Shown: in pieces, positions 36,387-50,404 of the stretch | Numbering within the stretch: position 1 is the stretch's first letter | Layout: the number at the start of each line of letters is the position of its first letter | NCBI GenBank assembly: GCA_009773415.1 | Contig: WSNO01000014.1 | Span: 1-64,000 of the forward strand | Length of the DNA: 64,000 bases | Origin: Nitrospirota bacterium | GTDB lineage: Bacteria > Nitrospirota > Thermodesulfovibrionia > Thermodesulfovibrionales > Dissulfurispiraceae | Reading direction: 5' to 3' | The notes under the pieces: model-generated | The model's input: the letters and a program-made list of their open reading frames with translations, nothing else | Databases searched by the model: none | What the model was told of the DNA's origin: nothing | Made by a program: the position numbers and the translations under genes

Positions 36387-36430
36387 GGACAGTATGGTAT
36401 CTGACCGAAATCAACGTGCGAGGTGATATG

Positions 36431-37735
36431 ATGGGCAACACGCTGAAGGAACATGGACTGAATGTGATTCAGGATGCCGACCTCAACGGAAAAATCGTAC
36501 TGGTGCGCTTCGACCACAATGTGGTGAAGAAAGGCGAAATCCGCGACCCGTTCCGCATTGACCGCACAATCGGGACGCTGTTTCACATTGTCGAGCGCGG
36601 TGCGCGGCCGATTCTGATGACCCACATCGGCCGGCCGAAGGAGAAAAAAAGCGGAGCAATCGTTTGCCGTCCCGAGGAGTCGGTCGAGCCGATTGTCAAA
36701 TATCTGGAGCAAAAGCTTCATATGAAGATCCATGTGCCGCAGTTCCCTGTCGACGGAGACAAGGGCATACTTGGCATTGATACCTCGATTAACCTTGCCA
36801 TCCGTGAACTGAAAGAGCGGCGGTTCGGCGCAATCTATCTGCCGAATACCCGCTGGTTTGCGGGGGAGGAGGCGAAGAATGCCGCCGCTGATAGTTTTGC
36901 ATTGCAGCTTGCGGGTCTGGCTGATATTTATGTGAATGATGCCTTCGGCTCATGGCAGCCGCACGCATCGACGTATGCGATTACAAAGTACATGCCGTCA
37001 TATGCCGGATTTCTGATGCAGCAGGAGATAGAGAACCTCGATCGGGTGCTCAACCCGGAGAGACCGTTCCTTGCGGTGGTTGCCGGGTCGAAGTACGACA
37101 CAAAGATAGGTCCGCTTTCTGCCATCTACGACAAGGTGGACAAGCTGATTCTCGGCGGCGTTATTTATAACACGTACCTGTGCGCAAAGTACGGGGTGCG
37201 GATGCAGGGCGTGCTTGAGGAGGACATCAGGCTGGCAATGGATCTCGTCGAAAAGGACAGGACGCAAAAAAAGGTGGTGGAATTGCCGTACATCGTGGAG
37301 TCGGACACCCTCGACGGGCGGGTGGAAGGCAAGTACCGCACCATTTCGGTGGCCGATTTTGCCCCCGGAAAAACATACGGCTACGGGCTTGATGTTGATC
37401 CGGCCTCGTTTGATCAGCCTGAAGTTGCCACGGCGATTTCGGAGGCGCGGACGATTTTCGTGAATGCGGTTATGGGCTTTACTCCGCATTTTACAGCAGG
37501 TTCGCAATCGCTCGACACGACGCTCGATCGGAACAGCGCTGCAATGAAGATGTATGGCGGCGGCGATACGCTCCAGGAATTCAAGGACCTCTGTCCCGGA
37601 CTCTATCTGTCGGTCATGGACAACGCGAACTACTATTTCTTTACCGGCGGCGGTACGGTACTGACGGCGATAGAACAGGGAAGCCCTTACGGATTAAAGC
37701 CGGTTCAGGCTTTGACGGCAAGGGGCAGGATGTAA
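36431..37735 (+). CDS. pgk: Phosphoglycerate kinase, divergent
   Basis: This protein of about 434 residues has the PGK fold order: IVLVRFDHNVV, THIGRPKE, LPNTRWFAGEEAKN, DIYVNDAFGSW, VVAGSKYDTKIGPL, KLILGGVIYNTYL, NAVMGFTPHF, GGGDTLQ and a final FTGGGTVLTAIEQGS. PGK interconverts 1,3-bisphosphoglycerate + ADP and 3-phosphoglycerate + ATP. Several signatures are altered: GGAK is AGSK, NGPMG is NAVMG, and the HRAH segment with a substrate-binding arginine reads WQPH. It may be a PGK with changed kinetics or a paralogue with another substrate. The start is ATG 36431 (GAGGT 6 nt upstream); ATG 36428 is equally in frame. Confidence 0.75.
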   Translation: MGNTLKEHGLNVIQDADLNGKIVLVRFDHNVVKKGEIRDPFRIDRTIGTLFHIVERGARPILMTHIGRPKEKKSGAIVCRPEESVEPIVKYLEQKLHMKIHVPQFPVDGDKGILGIDTSINLAIRELKERRFGAIYLPNTRWFAGEEAKNAAADSFALQLAGLADIYVNDAFGSWQPHASTYAITKYMPSYAGFLMQQEIENLDRVLNPERPFLAVVAGSKYDTKIGPLSAIYDKVDKLILGGVIYNTYLCAKYGVRMQGVLEEDIRLAMDLVEKDRTQKKVVELPYIVESDTLDGRVEGKYRTISVADFAPGKTYGYGLDVDPASFDQPEVATAISEARTIFVNAVMGFTPHFTAGSQSLDTTLDRNSAAMKMYGGGDTLQEFKDLCPGLYLSVMDNANYYFFTGGGTVLTAIEQGSPYGLKPVQALTARGRM

Positions 37736-37779
37736 GCAGCCTGATTGGCGAAAGTGCTTCAACCCGGAACCGGCAGTAG

Positions 37780-38157
37780 TCACTTTTCCGGCTCCGACAT
37801 CCTGCGTGCCGTCTGACCGGCAAGGGACGCCCACAGGCACCCTTTGCCGAACTCTTCAATGCCGGAGTATTTTCTGCAGATCTGCGGCCTTTGTTCGTAG
37901 ATGGCGCAGCCGCTCTCGGTAAGGTGCGGACAGGGAACCTTGATGCTCATATAGATTAGGCCGCTCTCATGCGGCGTGATGGTGCAGCCGCGGGTTTTGT
38001 AAAAATGAATTACATCTTCCGGCTGATCTTCGTAAAATGCCTTGAGAGTGAAAACACCCAGCTCCTGACAGCATTTGCGGCATTCCAAGCAGAGACGCTG
38101 CTTTTGGGACAGCTTTTTATTCAACGCCGGCAGGCCGGAGGGATATTCCTTTTTCAT
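37780..38157 (-). CDS. YkgJ-family cysteine-cluster protein
   Basis: This 125-residue soluble protein has the conserved metal-binding cysteine array: LCLECRKCCQEL, then RGCTITPHE, PCPHLTESGCAIYEQRPQICRKY. The family is predicted to chelate zinc or iron, and no reaction is established. A perfect TATAAT (38170-38165, minus strand) lies 7 nt before the ATG and there is no Shine-Dalgarno, so the mRNA may be leaderless. It converges on pgk with 44 nt between. Confidence 0.85.
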   Translation of the reverse strand: MKKEYPSGLPALNKKLSQKQRLCLECRKCCQELGVFTLKAFYEDQPEDVIHFYKTRGCTITPHESGLIYMSIKVPCPHLTESGCAIYEQRPQICRKYSGIEEFGKGCLWASLAGQTARRMSEPEK

Positions 38158-38164
38158 GGCCGTT

Positions 38165-38170
38165 ATTATA
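38165..38170 (-). promoter_or_regulatory. TATAAT -10 element of the YkgJ-family gene
   Basis: A consensus -10 hexamer (reads TATAAT on the minus strand) sits 7 nt upstream of the start codon. No recognisable -35 lies at 17-18 nt spacing. The predicted start point coincides with the ATG. Confidence 0.35.
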
Positions 38171-38242
38171 GTCCATCATGTCGTCTCTTTTCTTGTTTTA
38201 ACAGGACGGCATACAGGAACAGAAGCGCACAGGGGGTGCCGC

Positions 38243-38416
38243 ATGGGAGAGCAGAAGGCAGAAGGGCATCGGCGCAAAACGCCGATGTGCAAGATTGGCA
38301 AGGCAGGAGACCTGGAACGCATCAGGCGCCGCGTGCGGGATGCAAAATGCTTTTGTGCAAAGTGCGGCCGCGCTGCAAATGACCGCATATATCTTTGCAA
38401 ACCGACTGATATCTGA
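38243..38416 (+). CDS. Small cysteine-rich (zinc-ribbon-like) protein
   Basis: This 57-residue protein starts MGEQKAEGHRRKTP and contains CKIGKAGDLERIRRRV, then CFCAKCGRAANDRIYLCKP. The CxCxxCG...LCKP arrangement looks like a small metal-binding ribbon. I have an impression of similar short uncharacterised proteins in related bacteria but cannot confirm it. GGGGTG lies 4 nt before the ATG. The upstream in-frame extension overlaps the divergent YkgJ-family gene and is not likely to be translated. Confidence 0.6.
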   Translation: MGEQKAEGHRRKTPMCKIGKAGDLERIRRRVRDAKCFCAKCGRAANDRIYLCKPTDI

Positions 38417-38492
38417 AGCGACACATTGAGAGGCACTGTCAATCTGTGCAGTACGCAGGGCGCCGATCTGTCCTTCTGCGCTGATGACGCGT

Positions 38493-39347
38493 CTACTCCT
38501 TGTCGGCGACGGCGTCTTTCAGTCTCTGTGCCGATAGTTCCAGATATTTTTTTTCAGAGTCAATGCCCACATAGGCGCGGCCAAGCCGGACGGCGGCAAC
38601 GCCGGTGGTGGAACTGCCGCAAAAGGGGTCAAGCACCAGCTCGCCGGGGCGCGTTGCGGCGAGCAGAATTCTTTTCAACAACTCCACCGGTTTTTGAGTC
38701 GGATGCTTGCCGAACTTCTTTTCATGCGCTGCCGGAGCCGAAAGCTCCCACATGTTACGCATCTGCTTGCCGCCGTTCATCTCCTTCATGAGCTTGTAGT
38801 CGAAATAGTGTTTGCTCTTCTGGCTTTTTGCAGCCCAGAGGATAATCTCGGTTGAGTGGGTGAAGTAGCGGCATGACAGATTGGGCGGAGCATTGCGCTT
38901 GTACCAGATGATGTCGTTCAGAATTTTAAAGCCGAGCTCCTGCATCGCATAGCCGATGGAATGGATGATGTGGGTGGTGCCGGAAACCCATATGGTGCCA
39001 TCCGGCTTGAGAACCCGCCGGCATGCAGCAAGCCACTCAAGATTGAACCGGTGATTCTCGCAGACCCCTTTTGATTTATCCCATGTGCCCTTGTTGACCG
39101 AAACCCTTTTACCGGCGTGGCAGGTAATGCCGTTGTTAGAGAGAAAGTAAGGCGGATCGGCAAAAACCATCTCGACGCTCTCCTCTTTTGCCTGAGAGAG
39201 GATGTTCACAGAATCGCCATGCAGAAGCAGTGCGCCATGGGAAGGGGCATCATAATACACGGTGCAGGGCGATTGCGCCTGAGACGGGGGATGATAAAAA
39301 TCCGTTACGGATGCTGTCTGAACAGTAGTTTTTTTATTTGGTGCCAT
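38493..39347 (-). CDS. Site-specific DNA-methyltransferase, beta class (M.DpnA/MboI-B-like)
   Basis: This 284-residue protein has motif IV first (FADPPYFLSNNGI, residues 62-74) and the SAM-binding motif LDPFCGSSTTG near the C terminus. This order defines beta-class amino-methyltransferases. The continuation GKRVSVNKGTWDKSKG and HPTQKPVELLKRIL resemble the second methylase of DpnII/MboI systems, which modifies adenine in GATC; that specificity is a guess. No restriction endonuclease gene is adjacent, so it is an orphan here. I start at 39347, where an extended -10 lies 7 nt upstream; a longer frame to 39506 has no conserved sequence. Confidence 0.85.
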   Translation of the reverse strand: MAPNKKTTVQTASVTDFYHPPSQAQSPCTVYYDAPSHGALLLHGDSVNILSQAKEESVEMVFADPPYFLSNNGITCHAGKRVSVNKGTWDKSKGVCENHRFNLEWLAACRRVLKPDGTIWVSGTTHIIHSIGYAMQELGFKILNDIIWYKRNAPPNLSCRYFTHSTEIILWAAKSQKSKHYFDYKLMKEMNGGKQMRNMWELSAPAAHEKKFGKHPTQKPVELLKRILLAATRPGELVLDPFCGSSTTGVAAVRLGRAYVGIDSEKKYLELSAQRLKDAVADKE

Positions 39348-39354
39348 GGGCAAA

Positions 39355-39363
39355 AGTATAGCA
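39355..39363 (-). promoter_or_regulatory. Extended -10 of the methyltransferase gene
   Basis: On the minus strand TGCTATACT (39363-39355) is a TGn-extended -10 ending 7 nt before the ATG at 39347, again without a Shine-Dalgarno. Confidence 0.4.
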
Positions 39364-39498
39364 AATCGGTTCGGTATCACGCGAATCGGAAACAGTCCCC
39401 CGCGTAAAAGGCCTTTTGCCGGTTGCGGCTGTTTTATGCCATGATGCATAGTGTAGCTGTGAATTCCAGAAGATGATTGAAAAGAAAGGGGCACCCGA

Positions 39499-39981
39499 AT
39501 GCGCATTCATTATGTATTGCCGGCTCTTTCCTGTCTTGTTGTTTTGTTTGCAGCCTGTACTCCCGAGGCTCCGAAGGTGGCCTTGCCGGAGAAAAAAATG
39601 ACGATTACAGATGCTTCGGTGCAGGCGATCGGACACTGGAAGGCGGTAACGAAGCCGAAAGAGGCGGCGCTGCAGGCGGTGCCTCAGATAAACGCGGTTG
39701 ATTTCCGCTGCTATCGGGAGGACATGGTCTGTGTGGAGACGCTTGCCAGCCTCTATCAAAAGTCGGACGGAAATCCTGAAGCCCGTCCGTCGCTCTTTCC
39801 GCACCGGTTTGTATACAAGATTGTAAAGTGGGATGCATCGGGGCTGCAGGCAAAAAGCGAGACATCGGTTGCCGATGTGGAGCTGAAGGTTTCTCTGTCC
39901 GACAAGACGGTTTCCCGCGCCATGGTTGATTCCAGGGGGTCGGCAAACCAGACCCTGACGTGGTCATGGGTCTTGGAATAA
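39499..39981 (+). CDS. Predicted lipoprotein of unknown function
   Basis: This 160-residue protein has a lipoprotein signal peptide ending in the lipobox LFAAC (Cys20), so it should be membrane-anchored on the periplasmic side. The mature part has DASVQAIGHWKAV and FRCYREDMVCVETLASLYQ with two cysteines, and ends in a run of beta-type sequence. I recognise no domain. AAAGGGG precedes the ATG. The gene is convergent with the DUF3124 gene 69 nt downstream. Confidence 0.7.
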   Translation: MRIHYVLPALSCLVVLFAACTPEAPKVALPEKKMTITDASVQAIGHWKAVTKPKEAALQAVPQINAVDFRCYREDMVCVETLASLYQKSDGNPEARPSLFPHRFVYKIVKWDASGLQAKSETSVADVELKVSLSDKTVSRAMVDSRGSANQTLTWSWVLE

Positions 39982-40050
39982 CGTATGCGGTATGCGTTCT
40001 GAAAGAAAAGGGACCTTGCACACACCCCTTCTTTGCACAGAAAGACCGCA

Positions 40051-40536
40051 TCAGCGGAGCGAATGCCTGATGGGCTGCCCTTTGTTCACAATGGTAATTC
40101 CCTGCCCGGATTTGGTGGCGACTTCGACGGACTCGATGTTCGGTTCGTTCACGGCCTGAGCGGCCCGCCACTGAACAAGGAAGCTCGGAGCGTAGCCGCC
40201 GCTTACGTCTTTCTCTTCAATGAAAATATGCATGGCGGAAAGAGGCTTGATGTTGCGGGGCGCTGCGAGGAAGGCGCGAATCAGTTTGCCGTCCTGGTCA
40301 TGATAGTCGATGAATCTGACGGAAATCTCATGAACCGGGTCTGTGTTGCGGATGGTCAGCGTGAGAGCGAGGTTAATCCTGTTCGGCTGGTTGCCGACGA
40401 AGACGAAGGAATGCGCCGGCACAAAGACCGTCTGTCCCTTTGACAGTTCAATTTCGGCAGACGCCGCGCTCCGGCAGGCGACGGTGAAGAACAACAACAG
40501 CACAACGGCACAGGCTATGTGGTATATAGGACGCAT
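40051..40536 (-). CDS. DUF3124-domain exported protein
   Basis: This 161-residue protein has a signal peptide with a possible lipobox (FFTVAC). The body follows the DUF3124 pattern: GQTVFVPAHSFVFVG, LTLTIRNTDP, VRFIDYHDQDGKLIRAFL, IFIEEKDVSGGYAPSFLVQW and SGQGITIVNKG. Its function is unknown; the family looks like an immunoglobulin-type beta sandwich. A perfect Shine-Dalgarno (GAGGAGG) and a TTGACA promoter lie upstream, in the region shared with plsC. Confidence 0.85.
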   Translation of the reverse strand: MRPIYHIACAVVLLLFFTVACRSAASAEIELSKGQTVFVPAHSFVFVGNQPNRINLALTLTIRNTDPVHEISVRFIDYHDQDGKLIRAFLAAPRNIKPLSAMHIFIEEKDVSGGYAPSFLVQWRAAQAVNEPNIESVEVATKSGQGITIVNKGQPIRHSLR

Positions 40537-40564
40537 TGCTTTTCCTCCTCACGGGATCTCCTTC

Positions 40565-40593
40565 ATAATCTCAGATGCAGCGGATCGTGTCAA
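40565..40593 (-). promoter_or_regulatory. Predicted promoter of the DUF3124 gene
   Basis: On the minus strand a perfect TTGACA (40593-40588), a 17-nt spacer and GATTAT (40570-40565) give a start near 40558 and a 22-nt leader containing GAGGAGG. Confidence 0.5.
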
Positions 40594-40648
40594 GGCCGGC
40601 GACGGTTTGGTATGATAAAAACTGCCTGATAATGAGGAGGGATGTTTT

Positions 40649-41440
40649 ATGCTGCAGCTTGATTTCACGAGCGGAGAGTACCGGACGCCCGAAGATGCGC
40701 GTTCCTGGCTGAGCCGCATTTCGCCGTCAGCGGTATTCTATCCGATATTCTCGGGAATCGTGCGAAGGGCAAGCAGCGCGGCGAAACGGGGCAGGTACGG
40801 CAATAAAGAATGGGCGGAAACCAGCCGCGAGGTAATGTGCGCTCTTGAAACCGCCGGCGTATGCTTCGAGATTGGCGGCGTGGAGCATTTCAGAACCCTT
40901 GATGGTCCATGCGTTTTCATCGGCAACCATATGAGCACGCTCGAAACCATGGTCCTGCCGGGCATCATCCAGCCGATTAAGGATGTAACCTTCGTTGTGA
41001 AGCGGAGTCTTGTGGAGTATCCGGTTTTCCGGCATATCATGCGCTCCCGGGACCCCATTACCGTCGGAAGAAGCAATCCGAGAGAGGACCTTGTCGCGGT
41101 TATGGATGGCGGCTCGGCCCGCCTCAGGGCCGGACGGTCGATAATCATATTTCCGCAGACGACGCGAACCCCGGTTTTCGACCCGGAGCAGTTCAATACC
41201 ATCGGCGTGAAGCTCGCAAAGAAGGCGGGCGTTCCGGTTGTGCCGGTAGCCCTCAAGACAGACGCATGGGGCAACGGACGGTTCATAAAGGAATTCGGCA
41301 GGATTGATACGGCAAAGAAAGTCTCTTTTGCCTTTGGGCATCCCCTCGTTGTGCAGGGCCGCGGAGCCGAAGAGCATGCAATGGTGATTCGTTTTATTCA
41401 GGAGAAGCTTGCCGTGTGGCAGGATCGTCGTCAAGTCTGA
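40649..41440 (+). CDS. PlsC-like 1-acylglycerol-3-phosphate acyltransferase
   Basis: This 263-residue protein has the acyltransferase motifs in order. GNHMSTLET (residues 92-100) stands where the catalytic HX4D lies, with Glu99 in place of Asp. FPQTTRT (168-174) stands for FPEGTRS, and VPVVPVALKTDAWG is the fourth block. The family transfers acyl chains to lysophosphatidic acid at the inner membrane. Both catalytic and glycerol-phosphate-binding motifs are changed, so the acceptor may differ. GGAGG precedes the ATG. The last 47 nt overlap the 3' end of the convergent PAS kinase. Confidence 0.8.
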   Translation: MLQLDFTSGEYRTPEDARSWLSRISPSAVFYPIFSGIVRRASSAAKRGRYGNKEWAETSREVMCALETAGVCFEIGGVEHFRTLDGPCVFIGNHMSTLETMVLPGIIQPIKDVTFVVKRSLVEYPVFRHIMRSRDPITVGRSNPREDLVAVMDGGSARLRAGRSIIIFPQTTRTPVFDPEQFNTIGVKLAKKAGVPVVPVALKTDAWGNGRFIKEFGRIDTAKKVSFAFGHPLVVQGRGAEEHAMVIRFIQEKLAVWQDRRQV

Positions 41441-43016
41441 ATGCGGGCAGGTAGAGCCGGAATGTTGAGCCTGCCCCTGGCGAGCTCTCCACGTTGATAA
41501 ACCCGTCGTGCTGCTTCATGATCCCGTAAACAATGGAAAGGCCGAGCCCTGTGCCTTTGCCGACTTCCTTGGTCGTGAAAAACGGCTCAAAAAGCTTCCG
41601 CAGCACCTCACGGTCCATGCCGGTCCCGGTGTCGGAAACGCTCAGCAGCGCGTATTCTCCCGGCTTTCCATACCCATGCTGTTGTATGAAATCGTCGCCG
41701 AGCAGGTACGGCTCACACTTGAGGCGCAGAATCCCCCCCTGAGGCATGGCATCGCGGGCATTCATGACGAGGTTCATCAGCATCTGCTCCACCTGGCTCT
41801 TGTCCGCATTGATGATGATCGGCTGTGCCGCCGGCAGAATCTCGAGCGCAATATCTTCCCCAATGATCTCGGCAATCAGCTCTCCTGTGGCTCTGACAAT
41901 ACTGTTTGCATCAAGAGAAGTCCTGAAAAGCGGCCGCTGGCGGCTGAACGAAAGAAGGCGCTTGATCAGAGTCGCAGCCCGCTCCGAGGACGCTACAATA
42001 TTTCTGACATACTGCTTCATCGGCCCTTCCCCGGTCATTTTGAGTTCAAGAATCGTGGCATACCCGAGGATTGCGGTCAGGATGTTGTTGAAGTCATGAG
42101 CGATTCCGGCTGTGAGGCGGCCGATCGCTTCCATCTTCTGAGCGTGAAGCAACTGCTGCTCGAGCTTCTTGCGCCCGGTGATGTCATGCATGATGCCGCG
42201 ATATCCCACGATGCACCCCTGTTCATCATGCATCGCGTTGGAGGTGAGCAGCACGTCAATGTAATCCCCGTTATTTCTTCTGAGCTGAACTTCATGGTCT
42301 TTCAGGTACCCATCATTCATAAGGCGCTGAATCGCCTGCCGCCGGGCCGTTGGATCGGCGTAGATATCCCGCTCCATATTCAGCTGCATGATCTCGTTCT
42401 TACTCCCGTATCCGAGCAGTTCTATCCCGGCTTGGTTGATATCGATGAAGTCGCCGTTCGGCAAGGACATATAAATGGCATCGCGGGAATCCTCAAAAAG
42501 AGTGCGATACCGCTCCTCGGACGCTCTGAGAGCATTTTCTGCCTGCACGCGCTCCTCAATATTCCGGGCATCTGCAACCGCAAAAAGGGACTGGTCAAGC
42601 TCGACGGTTTTCAGGGAAAGCTCTATGGGGAGGTTGCCGCTGCCGGCTGTGGCAAACGTGGTGACGAAGGTTTCCTTTTTGAGCACGCTCTCCTGAGCCT
42701 CGGCAAACAGACGGACCGCATGTTCAGCGGCAGAAGGCGGCATCAGCGAGAAGATTGTGAGTGCGGCCAGAGAATCGCGGCTGTAGCCGAGGTCGCGGCA
42801 TGCTGATTCATTGCACTCAAGAATGTGGCCGGAGGGCACAGCAAGCAGCAATATCATGTCGCTGCTCTGATCAAACAGCACCCTGTACCGTTCAAGTTCG
42901 GCGATCCGCTGCTGGAGTTCAGGATAGTAGCTTTTCCTGATGGAGTGTTCGCCGAGTCCTGCGATGCCGTCGCGCAGCTCGTCGTGCCGCAATTCACGAT
43001 CAGAGGAGTCTGTCAT
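41394..43016 (-). CDS. PAS-domain histidine kinase, ErcS-like
   Basis: This 540-residue soluble kinase has two clear PAS domains (RYRVLFDQSSDMILLL and RYRTLFEDSRDAIYMSL), the second with a PAC end VGYRGIMHDITGRKK. A GIAHDFNNILTAILGY phospho-acceptor region follows, then an ATPase with LMNLVMNARDAMPQGG, DTGTGMDREVLRKLFEPFF and GTGLGLSIVYGI. There is no receiver. It overlaps the upstream ErcA-like gene by 17 nt. In Pseudomonas, ErcA and the PAS kinase ErcS belong to the ethanol-oxidation regulatory cascade, which suggests a similar pair here. The start at 43016 follows the MTDSSDRE context; the longer frame lies inside ercA. Confidence 0.88.
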   Translation of the reverse strand: MTDSSDRELRHDELRDGIAGLGEHSIRKSYYPELQQRIAELERYRVLFDQSSDMILLLAVPSGHILECNESACRDLGYSRDSLAALTIFSLMPPSAAEHAVRLFAEAQESVLKKETFVTTFATAGSGNLPIELSLKTVELDQSLFAVADARNIEERVQAENALRASEERYRTLFEDSRDAIYMSLPNGDFIDINQAGIELLGYGSKNEIMQLNMERDIYADPTARRQAIQRLMNDGYLKDHEVQLRRNNGDYIDVLLTSNAMHDEQGCIVGYRGIMHDITGRKKLEQQLLHAQKMEAIGRLTAGIAHDFNNILTAILGYATILELKMTGEGPMKQYVRNIVASSERAATLIKRLLSFSRQRPLFRTSLDANSIVRATGELIAEIIGEDIALEILPAAQPIIINADKSQVEQMLMNLVMNARDAMPQGGILRLKCEPYLLGDDFIQQHGYGKPGEYALLSVSDTGTGMDREVLRKLFEPFFTTKEVGKGTGLGLSIVYGIMKQHDGFINVESSPGAGSTFRLYLPAFRLDDDPATRQASPE

Positions 43017-44160
43017 AAAGATTCTCAATCTCATGAGCGGCGGGGATTCGGGGGTTTGTCGCCATGCATGCGTCTTTGAGAGCGTTTGCAGCGAGTGACC
43101 GGATGTCGTCCGCACAGACTCCGACAGTCGAAAGGCGCTCGGGTATGCCAAGATCCGCATTCAGTCTGAGGACAGCATCAATCAGGCGCTGCCTGACAGA
43201 TGCGTCAGAGAGATGTTTCGTATCGATGCCGAAGGCATCCGCAATATTCCGGTAGCGAAGCGGAACAGTGTCGAAGTTGAAATCGATGACGCCGCTCAGC
43301 AGAATCGCGTTGCACTCGCCATGCGGGAGATCGAGCAGTCCGCCCATGCTGTGCGCCATGGCATGCACGGCCCCCAGACCGGCATTTGAAAACGCAAGGC
43401 CGGCGTCAAGGCTTGCGAGCATGGTTCGACAGCGCAGTTCGATGTCGGAAGGGTTCAGTGCCGCCGCACGCAGGTTGGCTCCAATCAGACGTATTGACTC
43501 AAGGGCGAACATGTCGGTTATAGGCGAGCCGGCCGTTGAAACATATGCTTCGACGGCGTGAACGAGAGCGTCCATGCCGGTGTGGGCGGTCAGTTCAGGA
43601 GAAAGAGTGGTCAGTGTTTCCGGGTCTATGAGGGCCGCGTCAGGAACAAGGGTTTTGCTGACGATGGCAATCTTCTTGCGCTGGTCTGTTGCGTTAATAA
43701 TGGCAAATTGAGACACATCCGCCGAAGATCCTGCCGTTGTCGGGATGCAGAGGAGCGGCGGGCAGGAAAAGAGAATTCGGTCAATCCCTTCATAGTCGGC
43801 AATATGTTTTCCGTTGGAGGCGACGATGCCGATGCCCTTGGCGCAGTCCATCGGACTGCCGCCGCCGACCGCAACGAGCATGTCGCACTGAGCTTCCTTG
43901 AAGATGTGCGCCCCGTCCATCACCTCAAAGTCACGGGGATTTGCGGTGACGCGCTCGAAGGTGATGCAGGAGATCCCCTTAGCCTCCAGTTCCGCTGCTG
44001 CTTCAGTCGCCCATCCGGTCGCAATCACTCCGGGGTCGGTAATGAGCAGGACTTTCCTGGCCGAGAGATTTTTCACATACCTGGCAATAAGCTTGCGAGC
44101 CCCGACGCCAAAGACGAACTCCGGCGAGATGAATTTTCTGAGTGGGAAGTGAGAAATCAT
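43000..44160 (-). CDS. ercA: Iron-containing alcohol dehydrogenase, ErcA-like
   Basis: This 386-residue group III metal-dependent dehydrogenase begins LRKFISPEFVFGVGARK. It has the NAD(P) motif AVGGGSPMDCAKGIGI and the metal-site blocks TGMDALVHAVEAYVST and GAVHAMAHSMGGLLDLPHG. The C terminus ends ACMATNPR. The LRKFxSPEFxFGxGAR start and the xTNPR end recall ErcA, an alcohol-dehydrogenase-like regulator found beside PAS kinases, and the kinase overlapping its 3' end fits that. Whether it is catalytic or regulatory cannot be told from sequence. AGGAAC precedes the ATG. Confidence 0.85.
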   Translation of the reverse strand: MISHFPLRKFISPEFVFGVGARKLIARYVKNLSARKVLLITDPGVIATGWATEAAAELEAKGISCITFERVTANPRDFEVMDGAHIFKEAQCDMLVAVGGGSPMDCAKGIGIVASNGKHIADYEGIDRILFSCPPLLCIPTTAGSSADVSQFAIINATDQRKKIAIVSKTLVPDAALIDPETLTTLSPELTAHTGMDALVHAVEAYVSTAGSPITDMFALESIRLIGANLRAAALNPSDIELRCRTMLASLDAGLAFSNAGLGAVHAMAHSMGGLLDLPHGECNAILLSGVIDFNFDTVPLRYRNIADAFGIDTKHLSDASVRQRLIDAVLRLNADLGIPERLSTVGVCADDIRSLAANALKDACMATNPRIPAAHEIENLYDRLL

Positions 44161-44237
44161 AGTATAGTTCCTGAATGCTATTATAGCGCATAAAAAAGGC
44201 CGGAGAACAGATATTTAATGCTGAAGGGAAAGGATGG

Positions 44238-44310
44238 TGGGCAGTCGCAGAATCGAACTGCGGACACGTGGCTTTTCAGGCCACTGCTCTACCGACTGAG
44301 CTAACTGCCC
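44238..44310 (-). tRNA. tRNA-Phe (anticodon GAA)
   Basis: Read on the minus strand, the acceptor stem GGGCAGT/ACTGCCC has discriminator A. The D arm is GCTC-GAGC. The anticodon stem GTGGC/GCCAC has loop CTGAAAA (GAA at 34-36), and the T arm is CGCAG-TTCGATT-CTGCG. CCA is not encoded; the flanking bases read CC then A from the next position only by chance. Confidence 0.96.
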
Positions 44311-44383
44311 GTCCTGAACGGATAGGTTACCGCTTCCCTGAGAGCAAAGTCAAGATTGAGGCGACCCGAACTCCGAAACGCTA

Positions 44384-44403
44384 ATATTCAATATATTGAA
44401 TAT
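44384..44403. promoter_or_regulatory. 20-bp perfect palindrome upstream of pilB (candidate operator)
   Basis: ATATTCAATATATTGAATAT is a perfect 20-bp palindrome (half-site ATATTCAATA), ending 16 nt before the predicted pilB -35. Such a dyad in an intergenic region suggests a dimeric regulator site; no family is assigned. Confidence 0.4.
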
Positions 44404-44419
44404 ATTGGTATCTTTATAT

Positions 44420-44448
44420 TTGACATTCCGCACCCTTTTCAGTAACGT
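44420..44448 (+). promoter_or_regulatory. Predicted pilB promoter (leaderless)
   Basis: A perfect TTGACA (44420-44425), a 17-nt spacer and TAACGT (44443-44448) place the transcript start at about 44455, which is the pilB ATG. No Shine-Dalgarno is visible. Confidence 0.45.
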
Positions 44449-44454
44449 AAGAAT

Positions 44455-46212
44455 ATGAACGTGGTTGCGCCGTTACTTGGTCAGCTCCTGATTAAAGCAC
44501 AGCTTATTACGCAGGAGCAACTTGACGAGGCGCTCAAGATACAGAAACTCCAGGGCAGGCGGCTCGGATCCGCACTGGTAAAGCTTGGTCATATACCTGA
44601 GGCAAAACTGCTTGAGTTCCTGAGCCGCCAGTACAATGCCCCGGCTATTAACCTCTCGCAGCACAAGATAGATACCGCTCTTCTGAAACTTGTCCCCTAC
44701 GAAACCGCAAAGAAGTATCAGCTGATTCCCATCAACCGGGAGGGGGCAGCACTCCGCATCGCCATCGCCGATCCGTCCAATAATTTTGCGATTGACGACG
44801 TGAAGTTTCTCACCGGCATGAAGGTTTCTGTGCACGTCGCCCCCGAATCAGCCATTGTGGAAGCAATTGATCGCTACTATCCTCAGCAGGCAACGGTGAA
44901 GGTGGGCGGAGGCCAAGCGAAGGACGGCAGAGATGCATCTAGGGACAGCATGGAGGTCGATGACCTAAACAAGGTGATCGGCAGCGCGCTTGATGAGATT
45001 ACGATTGTCGAAGACAAGGAAGACAAGGATTTTCCGAAAGAGGTTGACGCCCCGATCGTAAAACTTGTCAACGGCATGCTCATGAATGCAATCACCGCAG
45101 GGGCAAGCGACATCCATGTAGAGCCGGCGGAAGATATGGTCCGTGTGCGGTACCGTGTCGACGGCATTCTGCGTGCGGTGCTTAAACTGCCGTTGAAGAT
45201 AAAAAACGCCATCACATCGCGCATCAAAATCCTGGCTCATCTCGACATTTCGGAGCGCCGCCTGCCGCAGGACGGCCGCATCAAGCTGAAATTTGCCGAC
45301 GGCCGGCAGATTGATTTTCGTGTTTCCACCTTTCCGAGCCTGTTCGGAGAAAAGGTGGTTCTGCGTATCCTCGACAAAGGAAACCTTCAACTGAACCTCA
45401 CGAAGCTCGGCTTTGAGGAGCGGGCGCTTCAGGACTTTATGGAAGCACTTGACAAGCCGTACGGCATGATTCTCGTAACCGGCCCGACCGGCAGCGGTAA
45501 AACGACCACTCTCTATTCCGCGCTTCAGGTGCTGAACAAGCCGGGCGTCAATATCATGACCGCCGAAGATCCGATAGAGTACAACTTTTTCGGCATCAAT
45601 CAGGGGCAGGTGAAGGATGAGATCGGGCTGAGCTTTGCCGCCTGCCTGCGCTCCTTTCTCCGGCAGGACCCCGACATTATCATGGTCGGAGAGATCCGCG
45701 ACTTCGAGACTGCGGAAATATCGGTCAAGGCTGCGCTCACCGGGCATCTCGTGCTGAGCACCCTGCATACGAACGACGCGCCCAGCACGGTTACCCGCCT
45801 GATAAACATGGGCATCGAGCCTTTCCTTGTTTCATCATCCGTCATTTGCATTATTGCCCAGCGGCTTGCCAGAAAAATATGCACGGAGTGCAAAACCGAG
45901 CAGAATGTGGCCGGAAGTGCGCTTCTGAAGCTCGGATTTCCCGAAAAATATACGGGCAAATTCAAATGTATGGCAGGCGCCGGCTGTCAGGCATGCAACA
46001 ACGCCGGATATAAGGGACGTATCGCCCTGTATGAAGTCATGCCGCTTAAAGAAGAACTGAAGGAGCTTATCCTTCAGGGAGCAACAGCGCCGGATCTGAA
46101 GAAAGAAGCGATGCGGCTCGGCATGCTGTCGTTGCGCCAGAGCGCTATCCTCAAGGTGATGCAGGGGGTCACGACCGTTGAAGAACTTATTCGGGTTACG
46201 TTTGAGGATTGA
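44455..46212 (+). CDS. pilB: Type IV pilus assembly ATPase PilB
   Basis: This 585-residue cytoplasmic hexameric ATPase powers pilus extension. The N-terminal MshEN/T2SSE-N domain is LLGQLLIKAQLITQEQLDEA and LVKLGHIPEAKLLEFLSRQY. The core has Walker A TGPTGSGKTTTLYS (~341-354), the Asp box TAEDPIEYNFFGINQ, Walker B IIMVGEIRDFETAEI and the His box TGHLVLSTLHTNDA. The C-terminal zinc site has CTEC and CQACNNAGYKGR. It is between PilB and GspE in general form; the single MshEN-type N domain and SFAACLRSFLRQDPD favour PilB. No other pilus gene is adjacent in this window. Confidence 0.9.
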   Translation: MNVVAPLLGQLLIKAQLITQEQLDEALKIQKLQGRRLGSALVKLGHIPEAKLLEFLSRQYNAPAINLSQHKIDTALLKLVPYETAKKYQLIPINREGAALRIAIADPSNNFAIDDVKFLTGMKVSVHVAPESAIVEAIDRYYPQQATVKVGGGQAKDGRDASRDSMEVDDLNKVIGSALDEITIVEDKEDKDFPKEVDAPIVKLVNGMLMNAITAGASDIHVEPAEDMVRVRYRVDGILRAVLKLPLKIKNAITSRIKILAHLDISERRLPQDGRIKLKFADGRQIDFRVSTFPSLFGEKVVLRILDKGNLQLNLTKLGFEERALQDFMEALDKPYGMILVTGPTGSGKTTTLYSALQVLNKPGVNIMTAEDPIEYNFFGINQGQVKDEIGLSFAACLRSFLRQDPDIIMVGEIRDFETAEISVKAALTGHLVLSTLHTNDAPSTVTRLINMGIEPFLVSSSVICIIAQRLARKICTECKTEQNVAGSALLKLGFPEKYTGKFKCMAGAGCQACNNAGYKGRIALYEVMPLKEELKELILQGATAPDLKKEAMRLGMLSLRQSAILKVMQGVTTVEELIRVTFED

Positions 46213-46295
46213 GTGCAGTGAAGGATGTGCAGTAATCGGCAAGTGCGGCAACCGCGGAGGTCAGTCTGTCCCCCCTGCGAAATGCGCTTCATGTA

Positions 46296-47057
46296 TTACA
46301 GTTTTATTCTCTGCGGGTTGGTGTAGACATTCAACCGGTCGGCCCGGATAAAGCCCACAACCGTCACGCCGCCCTTTTCCGCAATCTCCAGTGCAAGGCT
46401 GGTCGGCGACGTTCTGCTCGCAACAATCGGTATCTGCCACTTCGCGCACTTTGCGACAATTTCAGATGAAAGCCGACCGCTTGCAAGCATAATCTTGCCA
46501 GCAAACGGAATCTGCTCAAGAATGCCGAAGCCGATAACTTTGTCAACCGCGTTATGCCGCCCGATGTCTTCTGCAAGGCAAAGAATGTCCTCCCCATCGC
46601 TCAGCGCGGCGCTGTGAACACAGCCCGTCGCCTGATAGAGCGCCGATGCCTTCTGAAAACGATGGAAAAGGGATTTCAGTTTTGCGGGTGAAATGGTGAA
46701 GGGATCGTTTGTCGGCGTGATGTTCATGCGCTTCGGGAATGTGACGCCGCCGATGCAGCCGGACGTGATGACAGCGCCTTCCATGGAAACCTGGCCTTCA
46801 GCCGGAACATCGACAAGGACATCATCACCGTATTCGATGCTCATGCGGTCGATACACCATCCGCCCCGGATGATCGGCTCCGTCGCCAGAATGCCGGCGA
46901 CAAGCTCCCGAACCATCAGCGGCGTGGCAAACATGCTGAGCGCTTCCTTGCCGTTGATGCAGATAACAATGCGTTTTTCGACGGCAATGCGGTCGGCGGT
47001 CTCGACCATCGTGCCGCCGGAGTTCTTGATGATGTTTTTCTCAATTGATTCTATCAT
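46296..47057 (-). CDS. fdhD: Formate dehydrogenase accessory sulfurtransferase FdhD
   Basis: This 253-residue protein delivers sulfur to the molybdenum cofactor of formate dehydrogenases. Family elements are FATPLMVRELVAGIL, VITSGCIGG (one conserved Cys where many relatives have a second), YQATGCVHSAAL, EDIGRHNAVDKVIG and ASGRLSSEIVAKC with SRTSPTSLALEIA. No formate dehydrogenase structural gene is in the window. The ATG at 47057 has no good Shine-Dalgarno; an internal Met at 47009 is an alternative. It is convergent with pilB. Confidence 0.93.
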   Translation of the reverse strand: MIESIEKNIIKNSGGTMVETADRIAVEKRIVICINGKEALSMFATPLMVRELVAGILATEPIIRGGWCIDRMSIEYGDDVLVDVPAEGQVSMEGAVITSGCIGGVTFPKRMNITPTNDPFTISPAKLKSLFHRFQKASALYQATGCVHSAALSDGEDILCLAEDIGRHNAVDKVIGFGILEQIPFAGKIMLASGRLSSEIVAKCAKWQIPIVASRTSPTSLALEIAEKGGVTVVGFIRADRLNVYTNPQRIKL

Positions 47058-47111
47058 GAGGGTTCGTTATGCAAGATATCGCGCGGGAATCACTCCCTGA
47101 GAGAGAAAGGA

Positions 47112-47198
47112 TGGTGCCGAAGGCGGGATTCGAACCCGCACAGCCTTGCGACCACTAGACCCTGAACCTAGCGTGTCTGCCAGTTCCACCACTTCGGC
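47112..47198 (-). tRNA. tRNA-Leu (anticodon CAG)
   Basis: This 87-nt class II tRNA on the minus strand includes an encoded CCA. The acceptor stem is GCCGAAG/CTTCGGC with discriminator A. The anticodon stem CTAGG/TCTAG has loop TTCAGGG (CAG at 34-36). A long variable arm follows, then T arm GCGGG-TTCGAAT-CCCGC. Confidence 0.95.
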
Positions 47199-47328
47199 GA
47201 TCCTTTAAGCCCTCCTGTTCCGGGCTTTCCCGTTGGTGTCCGGGAGTATTAATATTAGCATAAACAAGGAATCACAGGGAAGCGGGAAGGAAAAAACGCT
47301 GTCCGTATTTTTCTCCCCTCTCCCCGTC

Positions 47329-47337
47329 TGGTACAAT
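47329..47337 (+). promoter_or_regulatory. Extended -10, probable glnS promoter
   Basis: TGGTACAAT is a TGn-extended -10 with hexamer TACAAT at 47332-47337. No clear -35 is seen. The leader to the glnS ATG would be about 27 nt and contains GAGGTGAGGAG. Confidence 0.4.
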
Positions 47338-47370
47338 ATCGATTATCAATCAACAGAGGTGAGGAGCCGC

Positions 47371-49089
47371 ATGGAAGAACAGAAGAACGAACAGGTACCG
47401 GCCGGACCGAATAATTTTATCCGCACGATTGTTGCCGAAGACCTGAAGGCAGGCAGGAACGAAGGGCGGCTCATGACCCGATTCCCTCCGGAGCCGAACG
47501 GCTATCTGCATATCGGCCACGCAAAATCCATCTGCCTGAACTTCGGCCTTGCGCAGGAGTTCGGCGGGGTCTGCAACCTTCGTTTTGATGATACCAATCC
47601 GACAAAAGAAGAACAGGAGTATGTTGATTCGATTATGGAGGACGTCCGATGGCTCGGCTTCGACTGGGAGGATCGACTCTATTACGCATCGGATTATTTC
47701 GAGCAGCTTTACGAGTTTGCCGTCCTCCTGATAAAGAAAGGACTGGCATTTGTCTGCGATCTGACATTTGAAGAGATGCGCGAGTACCGGGGCACACTGA
47801 CCGAGCCGGGCAGGGAAAGCCCGTATCGCAATCGTTCCGTTGAAGAGAATCTCGACCTGTTTGCCCGTATGAGGGCGGGAGAATTTGCTGACGGGTCAAG
47901 AACGCTTCGCGCGAAGATCGACATGTCGTCCGGCAACATCAATATGCGCGACCCGGTTATGTACCGTATCAAGAAGGAGTCGCATCACCGGACCGGCGAT
48001 GCGTGGTGCATCTATCCCATGTATGACTATGCGCACGGACAGAGCGATTCAATCGAAGGAGTCACGCACTCAATCTGTACGACCGAATATGAAGATCATC
48101 GTCCACTGTATGACTGGTATCTTGACGCGCTCGGCATCTGTCATCCGCGCCAATATGAGTTTGCCCGCCTGAATCTGAGCCATACCGTACTCAGTAAGCG
48201 CAAGCTCCTGAAGCTCGTTCAGGAGGGGCGCGTCCGCGGCTGGAATGACCCGCGCATGCCGACTATCGCGGGGTTCCGGCGCCGAGGATTTACGCCGGCA
48301 TCGATCAGAAACTTCTGTGAGCGCATCGGCGTTGCGAAGCGGGAGAGCATTGTTGACCTGGGACTGCTGGAGTTCTGCGTGCGGGAGGACCTGAACAGAG
48401 CTTCGCCGAGGGTGATGGCGGTGCTGAGGCCGCTGAAAGTCGTCATCACCAATTATCCGGAAGGGCAGGCCGAACAGCTCGATGCCGTCAACAATCCGGA
48501 AGACCCTGATGCCGGAACACGGCAGGTTCCGTTTTCGCGTGAACTGTATATCGAGAGCGACGATTTTATGGAGGATCCGCCGAAGCAGTTCTTCCGCCTC
48601 GCTCCCGGACGTGAAGTGCGGTTGCGGTACGCATATTTCGTCAAATGTGAAGAAGTGATAAAAAATCCGGAAACCGGGGTGATCGCCGAGCTTCGCTGTA
48701 CCTATGACCCGGCGACGCGGGGAGGCAATGCGCCTGACGGCCGCAAAGTGAAGGCGACGCTTCACTGGGTGGCGGCGGACACGGCGATCCAGTCGGAAGT
48801 GCGGCTCTATGACACCCTCTTTGCCGCAGGTAATCCGAATGATACTGCCGAAGGGCAGGACTTTACCGATCTGCTCAACCCGAAATCGCTCGAAATCATA
48901 GCAGATGCCCGGGTTGAGCCTTCGCTTGCAGAGGCGGCGCCCGGCAGCCGGTTTCAGTTCGAGCGCCTCGGCTACTTCTGCGTCGATACAGTTGATTCAG
49001 TGCCGGGCAGGCTGGTTTTTAACCGGACAGTTACGCTGAAGGACGAGTGGGCAAAACTGCAGGGAAAAGGCAGGGAGAAAACGGGCTGA
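47371..49089 (+). CDS. glnS: Glutaminyl-tRNA synthetase
   Basis: This 572-residue class I synthetase charges tRNA-Gln directly. The HIGH motif is in [34 protein letters not shown] is diagnostic of the Gln/Glu group. [19 protein letters not shown] and the SKR form [11 protein letters not shown] mark GlnRS, followed by an anticodon-binding beta-barrel domain. The start at 47371 has GAGGTGAGGAG upstream. The presence of glnS with gltX in the same window implies direct charging rather than only the amidotransferase route. Confidence 0.96.
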
Positions 49090-49122
49090 AGCGCGGAAGT
49101 TCGCAAGAACGGAAGGCAAAGC

Positions 49123-49163
49123 ACCGGAAGAGCCGCAGGAGCTTATCCTGCGGCTCTTCCGGT
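49123..49163. terminator. Long perfect hairpin between convergent glnS and icd
   Basis: Positions 49123-49140 and 49146-49163 are an 18-bp perfect inverted repeat (arm begins ACCGGAAGAGCC) with a 5-nt loop GCTTA. There is no U-run on either side. It is placed to block read-through in both directions or to stabilise both 3' ends. Confidence 0.6.
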
Positions 49164-49192
49164 ATCGACTTTGAGCGCGACATATCCGCCGA

Positions 49193-50404
49193 CTACGAAA
49201 TCGGCTGTTTTAAACGAGAAGCAACGGCGTCGATGAACTCTTCCGTCAGGGCGTATTTGTTCACTGCAGGTTCCGCGATCAGCATCAAATCCTTTGTCAT
49301 GATGCCGTCCAGAACGGTCTGAATGACGATCTCTTCCAGCCTCTTCGCACATGAGACGACATCGGGAGTTCCATCCAGCTCACCGCGCTTCGCAATCGCG
49401 CCGGTCCAGGCAAAGATCGAGGCGATAGAGTTGGTGGAAGTAGGATTTCCCTTCAGGTGTTCGTAATAATGGCGCATGACAGTGCCGTGCGCGGCTTCAA
49501 ACTCGTATTTTCCATCAGGAGAGACGAGCACAGAGGTCATGAGGCCAAGGCTGCCGAATCCGGTCGCGACCATGTCCGACATGACATCGCCGTCGTAGTT
49601 CATGCATGCCCACAGCATGCCGCCGGGAGACTTGATGACCTGTGCCACCGCATCGTCAATCAGCATATACCGGTAATTGACGCCTGCTCCGGCGAGACGC
49701 TCCTTCGCAGAGTTCACTTCTTCCGCAAACACATCGCGGAAAAACCCGTGGTACTGCTTCGAGATGGTGTCTTTTGCTCCGAACCAGAGGTCTACTTTTT
49801 CGCTGATTGCGTAGTTGATGCAGGCCTTCGCAAAGCTCCTGATTGATTTTTCGGTATTGTGCATACCCATGACGACGCCCGCACCCGTAAATTCATGAAT
49901 CGCAACAATTGTCTTTTCGCTCCCGTCGGCGGGCGTAAAGACAATCTCTGCTAAGCCGGGCCGGTCGATGATCATTTCGGCGTTCCGGTAAATATCGCCA
50001 TAGGCATGACGACCGATGATGATCGGCTTATGCCAGGCCTTCACTGCCGGCGGAATATTTTTTATGATGATCGGCTTGCGGAATACGGTGCCGTCGAGAA
50101 TCGAGCGGATAGTGCCGTTCGGGCTCTTCCATTGCTGCTTCAGGCTGTATTCCCTGACGCGCGCGGCATTGGGGGTAATCGTCGCGCATTTCACGCCTAC
50201 GCCGAACTCCCTGATGGCATTCGCCGCATCCACGGTCACCTTGTCATCGGTATCGTCGCGGTGCTTCATGCCGAGGTCGTAATATTTCAGGTCAATATCA
50301 AGAAACGGCAGAATCAGCTTATCCTTGATCATCTGCCAGATGATGCGGGTCATCTCGTCGCCGTCCAGTTCGACGATGGGGTTCAGTACTTTTATCTTTG
50401 CCAC
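49193..50404 (-). CDS. icd: Isocitrate dehydrogenase (NADP+), eukaryotic/homodimeric type
   Basis: This 403-residue enzyme oxidatively decarboxylates isocitrate to 2-oxoglutarate. It is of the type found in eukaryotes and some bacteria: [16 protein letters not shown] at the start, [30 protein letters not shown] with the substrate serine, [31 protein letters not shown] near the end. GTG start at 50404 with GGAGG 7 nt upstream. It complements the aconitase gene at 18-20 kb. Confidence 0.95.

Follow-up and report, generated by a model that had tools for sequence, protein, structure and literature searches.

We describe here a gene pair in a 64,000-nucleotide stretch of DNA from a Nitrospirota bacterium (contig WSNO01000014.1; hereafter the window), in which an iron-containing alcohol dehydrogenase (Fe-ADH) of the ErcA family is encoded just upstream of, and overlapping with, a histidine kinase. 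Our main finding is that a short motif close to the N terminus of the kinase tracks ErcA across the bacteria and archaea that were surveyed. The conserved unit consists of ErcA and this motif and need not include a kinase, because the outputs of the partner proteins vary beyond kinases. Judging from the sequences and from predicted structures, we think it likely that ErcA is a cytosolic sensor subunit, detachable from its partner, and docks on the partner's motif. With somewhat more reserve, we also favor the broader view that the pair represents a motif-bearing, dehydrogenase-gated signaling class in bacteria and archaea, with ErcA as the common sensor docking on kinases, GGDEF proteins and phosphatases, and on two partners at once in some methanogens.

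A short N-terminal motif in the partners of ErcA

Loci encoding ErcA were collected by scanning a contig collection with an alignment of four ErcA proteins, and the best 80 of the 534 relatives found were analyzed. The downstream genes in these loci share the consensus IIGLGExSxRKSYYPELQxRLxELE, the core of which (GLGExSxRKSYYPEL, 15 residues) lies just after the start of the window kinase and is followed by a helix. Conservation is highest at G20 and L34, found in 69 of 69 aligned rows, followed by S25 (67), Y31 (66), K28 (64) and R27 (63). The presence of such a GLGxxSxRKSYYPEL-type motif, which was defined in this analysis and is not a published criterion, served to recognize partners, and for searches it was represented by a 38-residue alignment (A4) that has residues 10-47 of the window kinase as its first row. 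The motif occurs in the next downstream gene at 78 of the 80 loci, the exceptions being L067 and L119. When 14,385 stop-to-stop frames (60 residues or longer) from the retrieved loci and the window were searched with a hidden Markov model of the motif, the hits came from these 78 loci and left out only the same two. Adding three loci from the window's own phylum gives 81 of 83 ErcA loci with the motif. Hosts of the listed loci include Geobacter relatives, Holophagaceae, Oceanospirillum, Pseudomonas, Synergistaceae, Spirochaetaceae, Methanospirillum and Methanoregulaceae.

The way in which the two genes overlap recurs as well. In 63 of the 81 partner genes, from bacteria and archaea, the assigned start lies inside ercA, exactly 17 nucleotides (nt) from its end, the assignment taking this position (-17) wherever an in-frame start exists there. 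Because the -17 start recurs in this way, the overlap of ercA and the kinase gene goes beyond chance. An in-frame ATG at -17 is present in 13 of the 15 loci from the Pseudomonadota draw described below (L218 has an ATG at -17, with a motif that was not parsed). Of 20 archaeal loci, nine have it as well, and another seven have an ATG at -14 in the same frame. The start codon falls within the C-terminal Tyr-Asp codons of ErcA in the window and mostly within Tyr-Glu codons elsewhere, so that an MKKxSD-like start of the partner is largely dictated by the overlap. We had considered MKKxS(D/E) as a functional motif and rejected it, since it amounts to frame-shifted C-terminal codons of ErcA and is absent from the non-overlapping Holophagaceae partners. 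The functional conservation of the partner N terminus lies further in than this start. In a Spirochaete metagenome-assembled genome (MAG; L126, 8112-8170), the partner frame offers no ATG, GTG or TTG upstream of the motif as far back as the preceding stop.

Co-occurrence of ErcA and the motif in four phyla

Four phyla, archaea included, were chosen for holding ErcA, and each genome draw (841 genomes altogether) was searched both with the ErcA family and, separately, with A4; that the paired searches covered identical genome sets rests on the equal size of the draws and on the genomes shown, those that did not match being partly listed. ErcA over the family cut-off was detected in 45 of the 841 genomes, and in all 45 a motif protein is adjacent to it by coordinates. 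An earlier note on this DNA had proposed just such a survey for the pair and had regarded failure of the two genes to co-occur as the outcome that would speak against it; the survey came out in favor of the pair, and the co-occurrence rules out ercA and the kinase gene as chance neighbors.

A convincing motif was present in 56 of the 841 genomes, and each of these has an ErcA-like gene next to it; one of the ErcA-like genes carries an internal deletion and another is truncated. Within the window's own phylum, ErcA was over the cut-off in 4 of 198 genomes and the motif was found in the same four; a lone 18-residue motif match containing a stop codon, in G111, was set aside. The phylum of the Geomonas genome G216 gave ErcA in 7 of 198 genomes and the motif in 8, the eighth (G263; L167, 890-1484) having an internally deleted ErcA beside its motif partner, a deletion that may be an assembly fault. 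For the phylum of the Pseudomonas putida genome G231 both were found in the same 15 of 249 genomes. Finally, 19 of 196 genomes from the archaeal phylum of the Methanospirillum genome G213 had ErcA over the cut-off, all of them with the motif, and ten more genomes in this draw had the motif beside an ErcA-like gene scoring 394-549 bits, the lowest of which (in G763) is truncated; a single weak 15-residue match in G851 was set aside. Apart from the short weak matches in G111 and G851, no convincing motif was found in a genome without an ErcA-like gene in the four draws.

The motif does not accompany other Fe-ADHs. A match to the Fe-ADH family (E ≤ 0.001) was found in 127 of the 198 genomes in the phylum of G216 versus only 8 with the motif. 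The archaeal genomes G827, G855 and G874, whose best Fe-ADHs score about 430-437 bits, are likewise without it. Surveyed Fe-ADH paralogues mostly score well below the ErcA cut-off, the E-value limit having dropped weaker Fe-ADHs from the Pseudomonadota and archaeal ErcA searches.

Some motif proteins are encoded away from ErcA. A motif search in 45 genomes selected for ErcA, drawn from 46 loci of which L068 was left out, was positive in all 45, with one convincing match in each except G238, which has two; the second motif protein of G238 is encoded directly after a second ErcA-like gene whose product is 56% identical to the window ErcA. At the two exceptional loci (L067 and L119; genomes G240 and G241), where ErcA is 54-55% identical to that of the window and lacks a neighboring motif partner, the gene for a motif kinase lies elsewhere in the genome (loci L174 and L175), and the archaeal genome G711 contains a second motif copy unlinked to ErcA. 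Linkage is thus not the whole explanation for the association, because motif proteins persist unlinked where ErcA is without a motif neighbor.

These results bear on an alternative in which the motif is a generic structural element, used for dimerization for example, that is kept with ErcA through the gene overlap while recombination swaps the DNA downstream. The motif begins no more than 64 nt from the ErcA stop in 73 of the 81 partners, and swapping behind a fixed block of DNA would look alike. However, the unlinked copies in G240, G241 and G711 persist together with an ErcA elsewhere in the genome, and a generic element would be expected to spread to ErcA-free genomes, where the four draws showed no convincing case. 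We consider this explanation quite improbable. As a separate observation, ErcA lies between two motif proteins in five of the 29 archaeal motif genomes (operons L271-L275), which suggests one sensor for two outputs.

Exchangeable outputs behind the motif

The outputs behind the motif are swapped among kinases, hybrid kinases, diguanylate cyclase-type GGDEF and GGDEF-HD proteins, and SpoIIE phosphatases. A Pfam scan of 47 partners detected HATPase_c in 39, a receiver domain in 25, GGDEF in 3, HD_5 in 2 and SpoIIE in 2. Forty partners were also scanned singly, suspected odd architectures first, which makes proportions among them meaningless; five of these 40 are PAS-SpoIIE proteins (L054, L062, L081, L090 and L116). 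The partner at L105 is a PAS-GGDEF protein, and those at L106 and L117 are PAS-GGDEF-HD proteins. Eight of the 40 have no PAS or GAF match and keep the motif (L051, L053, L060; L057, L085, L107; L079, L118); they form about three related groups and show no Pfam sensor domain, only the motif. The scans rule out kinases as the only output. The conserved dehydrogenase-kinase module that the earlier note had envisaged is accordingly strongly supported as a conserved pair, but its partner is not always a kinase and can be a GGDEF, GGDEF-HD, SpoIIE or PAS-only protein. One protein of the last kind is encoded in a genome from the same family as that of the window (G015; L046, 7415-8701, minus strand), where ErcA is paired with a PAS-PAS protein in which Pfam finds no kinase domains; the C-terminal stretch of this protein looks, by eye, like a degenerate receiver.

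ErcA compared with its paralogues

The window ErcA scores 584.6 bits against the NCBIfam model NF041833 over residues 7-385 (curated cut-off 550), all of the other 15 models listed for it remaining under their own cut-offs. Pfam places it in Fe-ADH families only (Fe-ADH and ADH_Fe_C), and its best solved relatives are 8zrl and 8zwd. D197, H201, H266 and H280, which we take to correspond to the metal ligands of Fe-ADHs, are present in 84 of 84 ErcA proteins including that of the window and in 26 of 26 Fe-ADH paralogues, and are thus not specific to ErcA; the GGGS motif is intact in both sets. What sets ErcA apart are R8, K9, P13, E14, W50, E79 and S271, each 98-100% conserved among the 84 ErcA proteins and rare in the 26 paralogues. 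A147, D148, S150 and Q151 show the same pattern, but conservation and contrast are inflated there, because one of the two locus-search patterns (ADVSQFAI) lies within the ErcA-only stretch 147-154 and the pattern used for picking paralogues touches residues 147-148. A FastTree phylogeny of 101 ErcA proteins, with eight paralogues as the outgroup, intermixes bacterial and archaeal sequences and pairs the window ErcA with a relative from the same genus (support 1.0). The window ErcA and its relative group with that of an archaeal Methanoregulaceae MAG (L122; support 0.90). The tree would fit transfer of the ErcA/partner pair from one lineage to another, and the grouping with L122 hints at such transfer between archaea and bacteria.

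The intact metal-ligand positions and GGGS motif would also suit an account in which ErcA, a catalytic dehydrogenase like any other, produces or consumes a small diffusible signal, such as an aldehyde or reduced nicotinamide adenine dinucleotide (NADH), that is sensed by the partner's PAS domains, the motif having some other role. Most partners do contain PAS domains (38 of 47 match PAS_9), and for the P. putida pair YiaY/PP_2683 one study proposes that YiaY senses methanol by way of its oxidation (PMC10308882). On the other hand, this account does not explain the motif following ErcA alone among the Fe-ADHs, and the eight partners lacking a PAS or GAF match have kept the motif. We view it as unlikely. 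Very improbable, in our estimation, is a third possibility, namely that ErcA has no sensory role here but is an ordinary enzyme of alcohol metabolism, which the kinase regulates and with which it is simply co-expressed. The co-cistronic layout taken alone would fit, but ErcA differs from the 26 paralogues at the seven positions named above, and in Pseudomonas inactivating either gene lowers expression of the ped cluster, according to a 2026 review (PMC12997753).

A possible route from ErcA to the partner output

An AlphaFold2 model of the window kinase has a mean predicted local distance difference test (pLDDT) score of 89.8, with values below 50 only at residues 1-3 and 20-28, the latter making up most of the motif core, which is followed by a helix (residues 32-50) running toward the first PAS domain. 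The model of the PAS-less kinase at L057 has a mean pLDDT of 80.1 (below 50 at residues 1-3, 24-29 and 316-326) and contains one unbroken helix, residues 32-108, that leads from the motif into the HisKA region (Pfam 79-147; invariant H87). In these predictions the most conserved stretch of the motif is largely without a confident fold of its own, as a docking motif would look. Among the matches listed, a Foldseek search with the window kinase model returned only PAS, histidine-kinase and phytochrome structures.

If ErcA is a docking sensor, the motif would be a linear docking site that has no stable fold of its own and folds upon binding. Most likely, the ligand or redox state of the bound ErcA then acts on the adjoining signaling helix: loading of ErcA with an alcohol or aldehyde, NAD(H) and metal would alter its grip on the motif, and the altered grip would change the helix. 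The earlier note had likewise suggested that the substrate or redox state of the dehydrogenase may be the signal, and a comparable idea has been published for YiaY/PP_2683 (PMC10308882). From there the change may pass through the PAS domains to the output or, in kinases that lack them, straight into the phospho-acceptor helix. In the window organism the output is a two-PAS histidine kinase of the non-hybrid type, without a response regulator close to it.

Several points weigh against the docking-sensor reading. The motif and ErcA lie on contiguous DNA in nearly all cases, and linkage could hold them together. Seven of the 45 ErcA genomes (G000, G001, G015, G115, G216, G231 and G213) themselves supplied rows of A4. 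The low pLDDT values are explicable by thin alignments (47 and 23 rows) and are no proof of a linear motif. Some partners, mainly archaeal, have PAS domains without a convincing output domain (for example L046, L271, L287 and L288). No fusion of ErcA to a kinase or to the motif was seen: among the ErcA proteins above the cut-off, no listed open frame exceeds 470 residues; long frames in G143 and G096 were rejected as ErcA fusions, being lower-scoring Fe-ADHs in genomes without the motif. In Pseudomonas aeruginosa, moreover, an ercS deletion leaves promoter activity if agmR is present, as cited in PMC13390443.

The window locus

The features of the window locus are collected in Table 1. The earlier note's description of an iron alcohol dehydrogenase overlapping a two-PAS kinase by 17 nt holds on the evidence of the open reading frames (ORFs), Pfam and NF041833. 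The ErcA-like ORF begins MISHFPLRKFISPEF and ends CMATNPRIPAAHEIENLYDRLL before its stop codon, with ATNPRIPAAHEIENLYDRLL as the C-terminal end. The kinase ORF was listed with 588 residues from an upstream ATG, and the sensible start is the one given in the table, which, set against the ErcA stop codon (43000-43002) on the same strand, makes the overlap exact.

Table 1. Features of the ercA-kinase locus in the window
Feature	Coordinates	Strand	Basis
ercA, iron-containing alcohol dehydrogenase of the ErcA (regulatory) family, 386 amino acids	43000..44160	-	NF041833, Fe-ADH and ADH_Fe_C matches, metal-ligand positions
Partner histidine kinase, 540 amino acids, two PAS domains, HisKA, HATPase_c	41394..43016	-	Pfam; ATG start at 43016
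17-nt overlap of the ercA and kinase genes	43000..43016	-	Kinase start codon inside Tyr-Asp codons of the ErcA C terminus
38-residue N-terminal kinase segment, residues 10-47, first row of motif model A4; putative ErcA-docking region	42876..42989	-	Co-occurrence with ErcA
Core motif, kinase residues 20-34, GLGEHSIRKSYYPEL	42915..42959	-	Row conservation; residues 20-28 with pLDDT <50
Predicted helix, kinase residues 32-50, linking the motif to PAS domain 1	42867..42923	-	AlphaFold2 model
PAS domain 1, about residues 43-152 (approximate bounds)	42561..42890	-	Two PAS stretches in Pfam; strands and helices of residues 54-152 in the model
PAS domain 2, residues 168-280	42177..42515	-	PAS_9 and PAS matches
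HisKA (residues 299-360) and HATPase_c (residues 405-525)	41442..42122	-	PF00512, PF02518

No receiver or membrane domain was among the Pfam hits of the window kinase, which consist only of the two PAS domains, HisKA and HATPase_c; these hits are the sole basis on which its earlier description as soluble can be upheld. No response regulator was found in the 10 neighboring ORFs (36416-50404; NCBIfam, E ≤ 1e-10), three of which had no match at all, in agreement with the note on this point. The neighbors of ercA include genes for a PlsC-like acyltransferase, PilB, FdhD, glutaminyl-tRNA synthetase and a CcrM-like methyltransferase, among others. The kinase gene is convergent with the acyltransferase gene, the two overlapping tail to tail by 47 nt (41394-41440), and the arrangement is repeated at L044 with an overlap of 44 nt. 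On the other side, PilB (44455-46212), which has a match to an N-terminal cyclic di-GMP (c-di-GMP)-binding domain related to MshE, adjoins the module. A tRNA-Phe gene (44235-44310) lies on the same strand as ercA and 74 nt upstream of it, an arrangement that recurs in a genome of the same genus (L044, 3324-3399). No promoter or terminator signal above that of shuffled sequences was found between the two; because the tRNA gene adjoins ercA upstream without such a signal intervening, ercA may be read from the tRNA-Phe promoter.

Implications and comparison with known systems

A 15-residue core that follows ErcA through the draws of all four phyla provides a precise site for mutation, a peptide for binding tests and a means of finding partners in other genomes. 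The results point to a metabolic enzyme that can be fitted, as an exchangeable sensor, to kinases, c-di-GMP-type enzymes and phosphatases alike, and they extend the ErcA module beyond Pseudomonas and ethanol oxidation dependent on pyrroloquinoline quinone (PQQ) to anaerobes and methanogens. A portable enzyme-gated input of this kind would suit the building of alcohol biosensors.

The ErcA/ErcS pair is already known, and an NCBI model for ErcA exists. In the openly licensed literature we found neither the motif string SYYPELQ, nor the name or number of the model, nor the phrase 'alcohol dehydrogenase-like regulatory protein'; no paper there was found to use the word ErcA with Geobacter, methanogens or Desulfovibrio, and a search on separate sensors and docking motifs turned up no paper. 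The window pair is distantly related to Pseudomonas ErcA/ErcS (YiaY/PP_2683 in P. putida), with which it shares an ErcA of NF041833, a co-cistronic kinase, the N-terminal motif and the 17-nt spacing (L112; G231). The motif of the P. putida kinase at the ErcS locus, the single motif match in G231, reads GLSNHTVRKSHYPEL, that of the window kinase being a row of A4. The window kinase presumably works like ErcS, yet it is not the hybrid ErcS: the Pseudomonas protein is described as a hybrid kinase in the review (PMC12997753), whereas the window kinase has no Response_reg match in Pfam. A further difference is that ErcS is a kinase and the partner outputs elsewhere are not always kinases.

Passages of the same review also describe conservation of the pair with regard to pseudomonads, an impairment of induction by an H281 mutation in YiaY, and an AlphaFold3 prediction that YiaY and PP_2683 contact each other via their N-terminal domains, while calling the passage of the alcohol signal from ErcA/YiaY to the kinase unresolved (PMC12997753). 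Elsewhere ErcA is presumed to generate a signal for ErcS (PMC7427536). According to the review, strain KT2440 carries PedS1 as its NahK homologue (PMC12997753), whereas PMC13390443 names ercS as the pedS1 homologue.

The known Pseudomonas regulon includes PQQ-dependent alcohol dehydrogenases and PQQ synthesis, while pqqC (TIGR02111) was not found in the window genome (G000). Among the 78 ErcA-bearing genomes searched for it, a subset of those found, pqqC was detected in 11, all of them within the 15 from the draw of the P. putida phylum, and likewise not found in 67. A PQQ-ethanol regulon in the window organism is unsupported on this basis. Catalytic Fe-ADHs such as lactaldehyde reductase and the NAD-dependent methanol dehydrogenases belong to the same family and share the metal-ligand positions of ErcA, but the 26 surveyed paralogues compared here differ from it at the ErcA-only residues and come without the motif.

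The NosP-NahK system is similar in another respect. NosP is a heme protein, a heme-binding FIST-type sensor, and not a dehydrogenase, whereas the window ErcA matches only Fe-ADH families in Pfam and is thus not of the heme-binding FIST type. The likeness lies in a separate sensor protein that modulates a kinase, and the review draws this same parallel (PMC12997753).

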